From: Campylobacterales bacterium
GTDB lineage: Bacteria > Campylobacterota > Campylobacteria > Campylobacterales > JALSKU01
Reading direction: 5' to 3'
Length of the DNA: 32,087 bases
Assembly: GCA_027065125.1 (NCBI GenBank)
Contig: JAMOOV010000161.1
Span: 1-32,087 of the forward strand
In this document: one piece after another, positions 8 to 23,110 of the stretch
Layout of the letters: every line of letters starts with the position of its first letter
How positions within the stretch are numbered: the first letter of the stretch is position 1
The notes under the pieces: model-generated
What the model saw: only the letters and a program-made list of their open reading frames with translations
The model's database searches: none
Told to the model about the DNA's origin: nothing
Translations under genes and position numbers: made by a program

Positions 8-94
8 TGGTACCTGGGGCCGGACTCGAACCGGCACGGTATCGCTACCACCAGATTTTGAGTCTGGCGTGTCTACCAGTTTCACCACCCAGGC
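8..94 (-). tRNA. tRNA-Leu (anticodon CAA)
   Basis: Read on the minus strand this is an 87-nt class II tRNA. The acceptor stem GCCTGGG pairs with CCCAGGT and is followed by discriminator A and an encoded CCA. The anticodon stem CCAGA/TCTGG encloses loop CTCAAAA, giving anticodon CAA for UUG codons. The long variable arm (GGTA/TACC around GCGA) and the T arm GCCGG-TTCGAGT-CCGGC are both intact. The 3' end is followed by CCTTTTT. It lies downstream of hup on the same strand, separated by a strong hairpin. Confidence 0.97.
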
Positions 95-2625: not shown

Positions 2626-2640
2626 AAAGGATTGATTATA
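2626..2640 (+). promoter_or_regulatory. Ribosome-binding site and ambiguous start of ftsK
   Basis: AAAGGA (2626-2631) is directly followed by TTG (2632), leaving no spacer, so TTG is an unlikely start. The in-frame ATA at 2638 has ideal 6-nt spacing and would give Met-Val-Lys-Glu-Ile-Leu, matching the length of FtsK N-termini I recall from this group. The next in-frame TTG (2668) has no usable Shine-Dalgarno sequence. Confidence 0.5.
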
Positions 2641-19261: not shown

Positions 19262-21904
19262 ATGGTTTCAGGAGTGTTTAAAAAGATATTCGGAACAAAA
19301 AATGATAGAGAAGTAAAAAGATATGCAAAGAGAGTGGAAAAGGTTAATGTCTTAGAAAAAAAGTATGAAAAATTGAGTGATGAAGAGCTTAAAAATGCCT
19401 ATCTTGAACTTAAAAAAGAGGTAAAAGAGGGTAAAAAGAGTCTTGATGATGTTTTGTATGACTCTTTTGCTATAACAAGAGAAGTTTCAAAAAGAACGAT
19501 AGGTTTAAGGCATTTTGATGTGCAGATGATCGGTGGTTTCGTTCTTCATGAAGGTAGGATTGCAGAGATGAAGACTGGAGAGGGTAAAACACTTGTTGCA
19601 ACACTACCGATAGTTTTGAATGCTATGCTTGACAAGGGTGTTCATCTTGTAACGGTAAATGACTATCTTGCCAAAAGAGATGCTAATGATATGAGTCCGA
19701 TATATAACTTTCTCGGACTTAAAGTTGGAGTTTTGACAGCCGAATTGGAAGATGATGCTAAAAGAAAAGAGCAGTATGATGCCGATGTAACATACGGTAC
19801 AAATAATGAGTTCGGATTTGACTACCTAAGAGACAACATGAAGTATTCACTTGAGGAGAAAGTTCAAAGAGAGTATCATTTTGCTATCGTGGATGAGGTG
19901 GACTCTATCTTGATAGATGAGGCAAGAACCCCTCTTATCATCAGTGGTCCGACTGACAAAACACTCGACAATTATAAAAAAGCCGATGCTATAGCAGTGC
20001 AATTAAAAAGAGCTATAAAACTTAATGAAAAAGGTGAAATAGATCCGGAAAGTGGCGATTTTATTGTTGATGAAAAAAACAGAACCATAACAATAACCGA
20101 AAAAGGTATCCAAAAAGCTGAAGAATTGTTTGGTATAGACAATATGTACAGCCTTGAAAATGCTATCCTTTCTCATCATCTTGATCAAGCTTTAAAAGCA
20201 AGAAATCTTTTTGAAAAAGATGTGGATTATGTCGTAAAAGATGGCGAAATCATTATTGTCGATGAATTTACAGGAAGACTTAGTGAAGGCAGGAGATTTA
20301 GCGAAGGACTTCATCAAGCTCTTGAAGCAAAAGAGAATGTCAAGATCCAAGAAGAGTCTCAAACTCTTGCGGATATTACTTTCCAAAACTACTTTAGACT
20401 TTATGAAAAGCTTGCAGGTATGACAGGAACCGCTCAAACGGAAGCTACGGAATTTTCTCAGATATACGGACTTGATGTTATATCCATACCTACTAATGTC
20501 CCTGTTATTAGAAAAGATATGAATGATCTTATATATAAAACCGAAAGAGAGAAATTTCAAGCGGCAATCAATACTATAAAAAAATTACATAAAAAAGGAC
20601 AGCCCGTACTTGTAGGTACTGCATCCATAGAAAAAAGTGAAGTTTTGCATGAGCTTTTGAAAAATGAGAAGATACCTCACTCTGTACTAAATGCCAAGCA
20701 TCATGAGCAAGAGGCTCAAATCATAAAAGATGCGGGTAAAAAGGGTATGGTTACCATAGCTACCAATATGGCCGGTCGTGGTGTCGATATAAAACTTGAT
20801 GATGAGGTTAAAAAGCTTGGCGGTCTGTTTATCATGGGTACCGAAAGGCATGAAAGCAGAAGGATAGACAATCAGCTAAGAGGAAGAAGCGGAAGACAAG
20901 GAGATCCGGGAGCTAGTCAATTTTATCTTAGTCTTGAAGATAATTTATTGAGAATTTTCGGTAGCGATAAGATAAAAACTATTATGGAGAGATTGGGTAT
21001 AGAGGAGGGCGAGTTTATAGAGTCTAAAATGGTAACAAGAGCCGTTGAAAATGCTCAAAAAAAGGTTGAAAATCTACATTTTGAGGCAAGAAAAAATCTT
21101 CTTGAATATGATGATGTGGCAAATGAACAGAGAAAGACAATATATAACTTTAGAAACAACCTTTTGGATCCGAATTATGATATAGGTAAAAAACTTGATG
21201 AGATAAGAGAAGAGTTTGTTGATTCGATTTTATTTAAAGCCGGTATTTTTGAAAGCGGTGTTAAAGAGGATTATGATCTTGAAAAAGCAGTTTCTTTAAT
21301 AAAAGAGGAAATCAATGAAGATATAGATGTGAAAGAGTTGAAAGATTTGGATTATCAATCTCTTGTTGAAAAGATATGTACTATTTTAAAAGATAGATAT
21401 GAAAAAAAGATGTCTGTTGTAGATGAAAAACAGAGAAACGAGATAGAAAGAGTGCTTTACCTTCAAATTCTTGATAATGCCTGGAGAGAACATCTCTATC
21501 AAATGGATATACTAAAAACAGGTATAGGGCTTAGAGGATACAACCAAAAAGATCCTTTGGTAGAGTACAAAAAAGAGAGTTACAATCTATTTTTAGAATT
21601 AGTTGATAGAATTAAATTTGAAAGTATCAAAACCCTTCATTTGGTGCAGTTAAGAGATGAAGAGGAAGAGAGAGAGCGAGAGAGGATGCAGCAGATATTG
21701 AACGAAATGCAACTCTCAAATGAAGATATAGAACTTTTGCATGAAAGCACTCTTGAACCGGAAGAGGTACATAATGAGCCTATAAGAGCAGAGAAAAAGA
21801 TACCGAGAAATGCTCCATGTCCTTGTGGTAGCGGCAAAAAATATAAAAATTGTTGCGGTAAAAGCGGTCCTAAAAAAGGGATACTTGCCAGCGAACAGGC
21901 TTAG
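19262..21904 (+). CDS. secA: Preprotein translocase ATPase SecA
   Basis: SecA drives secretory proteins through SecYEG. At 880 residues it is full length. Walker A is GEGKT (residues 106-110) in [14 protein letters not shown]; the DEAD-type Walker B is [17 protein letters not shown] (Asp211-Glu212); motif VI-like [15 protein letters not shown] confirms the second motor domain. The C-terminal zinc finger [13 protein letters not shown] (Cys853, 855, 864, 865) binds SecB or ribosomes in homologues. The N-terminus [14 protein letters not shown] is typical of the family. The next gene, lolC/E, begins within about 15 nt of the stop with no terminator, so the two are co-transcribed. Confidence 0.98.
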
Positions 21905-21919
21905 AAGGATAGAGCTATA
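21905..21919 (+). promoter_or_regulatory. Ribosome-binding site pointing to an ATA start for lolC/E
   Basis: AAGGA (21905-21909), which begins right after the secA stop, is 7 nt before ATA (21917-21919). A second ATA follows directly. No ATG, GTG or TTG occurs in frame between the secA stop and TTG at 21950, and that TTG has no ribosome-binding site and would remove conserved residues. Confidence 0.5.
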
Positions 21920-23110
21920 ATACTTTCATCATATCTTGTTAAAAAGTATTTGAGATTTGATAAAACTCAACCGTTTATAACGGTAAGTGCTGTTTTAGCT
22001 TTTGTTGGGGTTATGGTGGGGGTTATGGTTTTGATAGTCGCTATGGCTATCATGAACGGTTTTGATAAAAACTTTGAGGATAAGCTTTTTACTATGAATT
22101 ATCCTCTTAGTATCTACCCTAAGACTTATAAAAATATAGATGAAAATCTACTCTTAAAGTTGAGAAAAAAGTTTCCGGATTTGAAATTTAGTCCGTATAT
22201 AAACTCTCAAACTATCATAAAAAGAGGAGAGAAGCTTGAAGGTGGTATGCTTTTTGGTGTAAATTTTAAAGATGAATCAAAAATAAACTCCATAGTTAGA
22301 AAAGCGGTTAAAAATCGAAATATAAAAAGATTTGAAGTAGTTGTCGGAAAAGGTATCAAAGATATGTTTTTTTTGCAAAATGGAGAAAAGATAACTTTGA
22401 TATTTACAAAAAATGCTCCTGCGGGATTTTCATTGATACCTACGATGAAAAGATTTAGAGTTGTGGGGAGTTTCAACTCCGGTCTTATAGCTTATGATAA
22501 GGTGTATATGTATGCCACATTGGACTCTTTGCAAAAGATTTTGCATTTTGCTCTAAATGAGTTTAGCGGTATTCACATATACTCTAAAAATCCTCAAGCA
22601 GATATAAAAAAGATACAAAAATTTTTGCCTGATTATGCCGGAGTTATAGGGTGGTGGCAACAAAACGGTAACTTTTTTGCAGCACTTGCTTTGGAAAAGA
22701 GATCTCTTTTTGTAGTTTTGATGTTGATTATACTAATAGCCTCTTTAAATATCATAAGTTCTTTGCTTATGATAGTGATGAACAGGAGAAAAGAAATAGC
22801 ACTTTTGCTCTCTTTGGGAGCTACAAAAAAAGAGATAAGAGATACATTTTTTCGTCTTGGAATGGTGATAGGAGGAAGCGGTATAATTGTAGGGGTTGTT
22901 CTCGGTCTTGTGATAATGTATCTTCTTGGTTCTTTTGATATTATCTCTTTGCCTGCAGATGTTTACGGAATGAGCAAATTGCCTATAGATTTATCGTTGA
23001 GAGATTTTGTTTTAATAATTATCGGTGCAGTGGCTATAGTAGCTTTTTCATCCTATTATCCGTCAAAACAAATCAGCAAGATAGATATCCTTTCTACTTT
23101 GAGGGACTAA
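21917..23110 (+). CDS. lolC: Lipoprotein-releasing system permease LolC/LolE
   Basis: This inner-membrane protein extracts mature lipoproteins and passes them to LolA, powered by the LolD ATPase, which is not in the window. Read from ATA at 21917 it has 397 residues; from the conventional TTG at 21950, 386. The longer form restores SSYLVKKYLRFDKTQPFITV, the N-terminal signature of the family before the first membrane segment. MacB/FtsX topology is clear: one membrane helix (AVLAFVGVMVGVMVLIVAMA), a periplasmic domain of about 200 residues starting NGFDKNFEDKLFTMNYP, then three C-terminal helices with the LLSLGATKKEIRDTFFRLG coupling segment. Campylobacterota usually have a single LolC/E-type permease, so C versus E is not separable. 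Its 3' end overlaps the convergent AsmA-like gene by 17 bp. Confidence 0.9.
   Translation: MILSSYLVKKYLRFDKTQPFITVSAVLAFVGVMVGVMVLIVAMAIMNGFDKNFEDKLFTMNYPLSIYPKTYKNIDENLLLKLRKKFPDLKFSPYINSQTIIKRGEKLEGGMLFGVNFKDESKINSIVRKAVKNRNIKRFEVVVGKGIKDMFFLQNGEKITLIFTKNAPAGFSLIPTMKRFRVVGSFNSGLIAYDKVYMYATLDSLQKILHFALNEFSGIHIYSKNPQADIKKIQKFLPDYAGVIGWWQQNGNFFAALALEKRSLFVVLMLIILIASLNIISSLLMIVMNRRKEIALLLSLGATKKEIRDTFFRLGMVIGGSGIIVGVVLGLVIMYLLGSFDIISLPADVYGMSKLPIDLSLRDFVLIIIGAVAIVAFSSYYPSKQISKIDILSTLRD

Follow-up and report, generated by a model that had tools for sequence, protein, structure and literature searches.

The locus considered here raises the question of where translation begins in a gene without a canonical start codon at its expected 5' end. 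The gene encodes a lolC/E-type lipoprotein-releasing permease and follows secA in the window, the 32,087-nt stretch of DNA that was analysed. The original prediction placed its start at an ATA codon, and ATA 21917 emerges from our analysis as the most probable start, supported by conservation among relatives. The sequence bears out what was said of the region: the frame holds no ATG, GTG or TTG between the secA stop and TTG 21950, and AAGGA lies 7 nt before ATA 21917. Read in frame after the secA TAG (21902-21904, with 12 nt between it and the proposed start), the codons are AAG GAT AGA GCT ATA ATA CTT TCA TCA TAT CTT GTT AAA AAG TAT TTG(21950), within an open reading frame listed as 21905-23110. 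A second ATA at 21920 adjoins the first, and the choice of 21917 rests on alignment. The peptide encoded before TTG 21950, proposed to fit the N-terminus of the family, does so, with LSSYLVKKYLRFDK aligning with many homologues from their residue 1. RNA folding prediction at the start shows no unusual weakness of structure (z-score 0.55). The features concerned, together with those of a second gene of the same layout, are collected in Table 1.

Table 1. Features of the window that bear on the proposed AUA starts.
Feature	Position	Strand	Basis
AAAGGA Shine-Dalgarno of ftsK	2626..2631	+	Sequence; AAAGGA in 9/9 genus genomes
Proposed start codon of ftsK (ATA), 6 nt after AAAGGA	2638..2640	+	ATA in 9/9 genus genomes
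ftsK coding region, 700 aa	2638..4740	+	Pfam FtsK_SpoIIIE, FtsK_alpha, FtsK_gamma
secA coding region	19262..21904	+	ORF list; C-terminal motif and stop of SecA found in six genus genomes
AAGGA Shine-Dalgarno, adjoins secA stop	21905..21909	+	Sequence; in 5/6 genus genomes, the exception being the TTG-start genome
ATA, proposed lolC/E start codon	21917..21919	+	ATA/ATC in 5/6 genus genomes; onset of protein-level constraint just after
lolC/E-type lipoprotein-releasing permease coding region, 397 aa	21917..23110	+	TIGR02212; Pfam FtsX, MacB_PCD
TTG, first canonical start codon in lolC/E frame; rejected as start	21950..21952	+	CTT/CTA in 2/6 genus genomes

The Pfam matches of the LolC/E protein are above their cut-offs, and its match to NCBIfam TIGR02212 is near full-length (E=5.7e-74) with 249.5 bits, below the cut-off of 362.45. 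A match of this kind, nearly full-length yet below the cut-off, may mean that the lineage uses a divergent permease (window 21917-23110).

Comparison within the genus carries most of the argument for lolC/E. Nine genomes were searched, seven had a match and six had a readable 5' end, namely the window's own genome (G000), G001, G002, G003, G004 and G008; the genus genomes are draft assemblies, and five matching named records (L011-L015), which are metagenome-assembled, hold the same five congener sequences and were left out of the counts. Two codons before a conserved CTY lies ATA in G000, G002, G004 and G008 and ATC in G001, in each of these five genomes 6-7 nt after AAGGA. The sixth, G003, is without AAGGA and has a TTG two codons upstream of that position, so this gene does not strictly require AUA. 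Among differing codons in the 15 pairs of genomes, themselves not independent comparisons, the nine codons before TTG 21950 gave 47 synonymous and 13 non-synonymous differences, and the 27 codons from TTG 21950 onward gave 182 versus 63; in the four codons that precede the nine (two upstream, the start and one after it), the count was 6 synonymous versus 44 non-synonymous. By this comparison, the nine codons evolve like coding sequence and the stretch is judged to be translated. Outside the genus, we examined 75 homologues (the best 80 of 227 minus five from the genus), and every one of them carries a canonical codon within a span from 12 codons before the start place to 3 codons after it: ATG in 45, failing that TTG in 29, and failing that GTG in one.

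The original prediction also held that lolC/E was the second gene in the window with an AAGGA-N6/7-ATA layout. It left the first case unnamed, and the gene meant is almost certainly ftsK, which has the matching layout in the form AAAGGA-N6-ATA (2626-2640). A TTG at 2632 abuts the Shine-Dalgarno sequence of ftsK, and this codon varies among the genus genomes. The AAAGGA-N6-ATA arrangement is invariant in all nine, with variation in the two intervening codons. At the level of the order, probably Campylobacterales to judge by named relatives, a search of 119 genomes drawn from a larger group gave 112 with an ftsK match, and starts were read in 74 genomes: 70 of the 112 (five from the genus, 25 others and 40 hand-picked for a located N-terminus) and four further genus genomes. 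These starts were called by eye, in the knowledge of the ATH pattern, before being string-checked against the DNA. They comprise ATT in 32 genomes, ATA in 15, ATC in seven, TTG in 12, GTG in seven and ATG in one, giving an ATH start in 54 of the 74, with one ATT (L190) that could be GTG instead. The spacing between the Shine-Dalgarno sequence and ATH is 6 nt in 41 of the 54 and 7 nt in 11, and a few of the starts read have a weak Shine-Dalgarno sequence. The ftsK match of one relative (G116, C1:889181-890656, minus strand) contains one internal TGA.

On this comparative evidence, lolC/E, and ftsK with it, very probably begin translation at AUA. A gene finder limited to ATG, GTG and TTG would choose TTG 21950, the first canonical start in the lolC/E frame, and the conserved stretch upstream would then be untranslated or a relic. 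We consider such a start very unlikely, since it would lie without an AAGGA-type Shine-Dalgarno sequence, at a codon that is no start codon in two of the six genus genomes (CTT in G008 and CTA in G003), and would remove LSSYLVKKY, which aligns with homologues; the coding-like evolution of the nine preceding codons also argues against it. No separate start would be needed if readthrough of the SecA stop codon, or a frameshift, produced a SecA-LolC/E fusion, and secA and lolC/E do share one frame in G000, G002, G003 and G004. The frames differ, however, in G001 and G008, a second in-frame TAA stands directly before the ATA in G002 and G004, and ftsK, which lies 33 nt behind its upstream gene, also shows the AUA layout, all of which leave a fusion scarcely credible. 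It might also be supposed that the true codon is ATG and that ATA is an assembly artefact. The window's genome is a 209-contig draft, and one further candidate described below, an AsmA-like gene, has ATA in this genome only. Such an error is nonetheless highly improbable, as ATA or ATC occupies the lolC/E and ftsK positions in other genomes as well, and ftsK starts of the ATT or ATC type occur in single-contig genomes such as G099 and G065. A base-call error at 21917-21922, which had been named as grounds for abandoning the ATA start, is contradicted for lolC/E by the ATA and ATC of its congeners.

A different kind of explanation makes AUA a normal start, either because the lineage reads it as methionine or because its initiator tRNA or IF3 is altered. 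The presence of several AUA-start candidates in one genome speaks for it, and it had been suggested that IF3 (infC) and the initiator tRNA might carry unusual residues; nothing unusual appeared in either at the level examined. Anticodons were read in the 38 tRNA genes found except C180 and a Leu gene (C31). Three of those read are CAU, one of them in a tRNA of initiator type: its first pair is mismatched and its anticodon stem has three G-C pairs, which we take to be the normal initiator features. No UAU occurs among the anticodons read, in a set from which unassembled tRNAs may be missing. IF3, compared as a whole alignment, aligns with a solved IF3 over residues 4-172 of 173. Internal ATA codons of lolC/E align with Ile in 54% of aligned cells and with Met in 3.8% across the 75 homologues, and those of ftsK align with Ile in 69% across 25 homologues, with Met outside the six commonest residues; judged from these alignments, internal ATA means Ile. 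Together with the lack of a clear in-frame AUH excess after Shine-Dalgarno sequences, considered below, these observations make a changed code or changed machinery very unlikely, and AUA initiation at individual genes remains our preferred reading.

Two further observations were made on the same components. The infC gene of the genus has an apparent TTG start in all seven genomes read, and the DNA just upstream of that TTG, TGGAGTTATCTTTTGAGTAA, is identical or nearly so in these seven (L100-L106). This conserved leader exceeds what a plain Shine-Dalgarno sequence would need and is possibly a regulatory site. A tRNA-Leu(CAA) gene lies at the window edge (8-94, minus strand).

The original prediction went on to propose a lineage-wide tolerance of AUA starts and a scan for further cases. 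Our sample of the window's own genome covered 584,346 bp (29%), window included, with 449 open reading frames of at least 150 aa. A filter retained frames that have AUH with a Shine-Dalgarno sequence and lack a canonical codon among their first eight. Ten frames passed, four of which were judged real: lolC/E and the newly found era, AsmA-like and TsaB-like genes. The other six were dropped by judgement as having a downstream ATG with a Shine-Dalgarno sequence or as fragments or shadow ORFs. The filter missed ftsK, which was added as a fifth, giving five of 449 (about 1%), two of which, lolC/E and ftsK, lie in the window and had given rise to the search. Judgement also removed two of five filtered candidates in G004 and one of two in G008, whose samples were partly chosen to hold the contigs with lolC/E and ftsK, a bias in favour of these two genes.

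The three additional genes differ in how widely the ATA is shared. Era of the window's own genome has an in-frame stop three codons before the ATA, and its next canonical codon lies inside the GTPase core. The candidate era start is ATA in G000 (after GGGGA rather than AAGGA) and in G002 and G004 (AAAGGA-N6), and the other six of the nine genus genomes have ATG, GTG or TTG near the start place. The AsmA-like gene has ATA in G000 alone, with ATG at the same codon in seven of eight congeners and one codon later in the eighth; an ATA so confined may reflect a base error or a change private to this genome. In the TsaB-like gene, ATA is present in all eight genus genomes with a match (nine searched). 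This small gene has a sub-threshold match to TsaB (E=0.0016, 18.5 bits versus 69.3) and no Pfam match. In the window's own genome (L170:16258-16726, minus strand), its ATA overlaps the stop of the upstream ORF as ATAA, a parallel to the common ATGA, and in the matched genus genomes (L378-L385) ATA followed by AAA is kept in 8/8.

Two genomes from outside the genus served as controls, with 400 kb sampled from each. In G065 (291 ORFs), three ORFs were listed and two kept as likely, MnmE (ATA) and ThrE (ATT); in G064 (311 ORFs), ten were listed and none kept. The two likely cases in G065 suggest that the trait is not special to the window's genus. In the MnmE gene (L352:5226-6570, minus strand), an in-frame stop lies three codons before the ATA, the first canonical codon comes 51 codons in, and ATA and the upstream stop overlap as ATAG. 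The ThrE-family exporter (L346:1460-2264, plus strand) may start at ATT.

Counts over the genome temper the broader claim. In 522 ORFs of at least 100 aa from the own-genome sample, codons after a Shine-Dalgarno match of at least 5 bases fell in frame, at +1 and at +2 as follows: ATG 165/8/3, GTG 23/6/0 and TTG 33/9/6, and for AUH, ATA 27/24/5, ATT 11/10/13 and ATC 6/4/3. The two control frames differ between themselves, which makes the test coarse, and AUH shows no clear in-frame excess over out-of-frame occurrences in this 584-kb sample. The rarity of the candidates, taken with the lack of a clear genome-wide excess, argues against a general AUA tolerance. What stands of the proposal is that more candidates exist in this genome and its relatives and that an ATH start of ftsK extends through most of the genomes read; the general tolerance is unsupported. 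Genome-wide, AAAGGA-N6-ATA occurs 80 times versus 44 for the reversed control; the motif by itself is weak evidence, and the strength of the case lies in conservation.

Several other searches were less productive. The raw motif scan examined 79 sites, and a strict filter left three, only the AsmA-like gene being convincing; this filter drops ftsK because of TTG 2632 and therefore undercounts. A first-pass AUH list (215,986 bp, 192 ORFs) gave 18 sites, most of which are ordinary starts in which ATA or ATT immediately precedes ATG or TTG. In a list of 13 own-genome candidate sites, a MoaA-like match (L238) was judged to be an internal Ile, and the remainder, apart from the genes named in this account, were judged internal or weak. 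An all-against-all ORF comparison for startless genes was swamped by opposite-strand shadow ORFs and was treated as a lead only.

Start position and conservation are shown by genome comparison; initiator tRNA use, low output, coupling and IF3 sensitivity are inferred, the low output and the IF3 control from E. coli infC and pcnB, S. aureus ccpN and Streptomyces sigR. The AAGGA Shine-Dalgarno sequence would position the 30S subunit with AUA in the P site. There, the usual initiator tRNA with its CAU anticodon would pair with two of the three AUA bases, leaving a mismatch at the third, and insert formyl-methionine. At lolC/E, ribosomes that end secA just upstream probably help through coupling, and in several of the genes the nearby end of an upstream gene probably aids AUA initiation beside Shine-Dalgarno pairing. 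The distance from the upstream ORF end to the start is 12 nt for lolC/E, 33 nt for ftsK and 1 nt for the AsmA-like gene, and for era it is 15 nt in G004 and 58 nt in G000. IF3 should discriminate against AUA, so one would expect low output that changes in the opposite direction to IF3 activity.

There are precedents for starts of this type. The infC (IF3) and pcnB genes of E. coli are described as having AUU start codons, and infC as a case of weak initiation discriminated by IF3, in passages of PMC9410913 and PMC5472188. In lolC/E and ftsK an AUH codon likewise stands in place of AUG; unlike the E. coli cases, the genes are others, the codon here is AUA or AUC, infC of the genus apparently starts at TTG, and control by IF3 is proposed by analogy. 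For S. aureus, PMC13009471 gives AUA starts for infC, ccpN and citZ, with AUA reporter output about 10% of that of AUG, rising in rich medium to as much as 30% for ccpN, and with the ccpN AUA start conserved between S. aureus and B. subtilis. These starts resemble ours in placing AUA after a Shine-Dalgarno sequence; that source describes ribosome profiling, plus reporters for ccpN and citZ, as their basis, whereas ours come from genome comparison, and unlike them, the AUH start of ftsK spans most sampled genomes of an order. The sigR gene of Streptomyces, with a GTC start and IF3-mediated repression described as experimentally tested in the relevant passage of PMC5472188, is a further non-canonical start, which differs from the present ones in codon, gene and phylum and in that ours are proposed from genomes compared with one another. 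Among titles and abstract openings, with few subscription papers covered, neither ftsK nor lolC/E was reported with an AUH start, and the main text of a C. jejuni start-site profiling paper, as far as it was available to us, makes no mention of ftsK (PMC11955535). The metagene analysis in that paper took annotated ATG, TTG and GTG starts as its basis.

By analogy with E. coli infC and pcnB and S. aureus ccpN, the starts described here are probably weak ones discriminated by IF3. As judged from the sequences, the device is of a known kind and is found here in new genes. One practical consequence is that gene finders restricted to ATG, GTG and TTG will assign such genes a wrong start, usually one that is too late. 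We regard ftsK as the most interesting part, with a weak start kept in most of the genomes read from an order. The prevalence of AUH there, together with ATG in one of the 74, suggests that weak initiation of this division protein is favoured by selection. More tentatively, and in our view doubtfully, the weak start of ftsK through most of the order and the lineage-varying starts of lolC/E, era, the tsaB-like gene and mnmE could, by the same analogy, form a translational regulon controlled by IF3. If so, the AUAA and AUAG stop-start overlaps in some members would suit termination-reinitiation, and the regulon would tie cell division, lipoprotein sorting and ribosome and tRNA maturation to the supply of an initiation factor.
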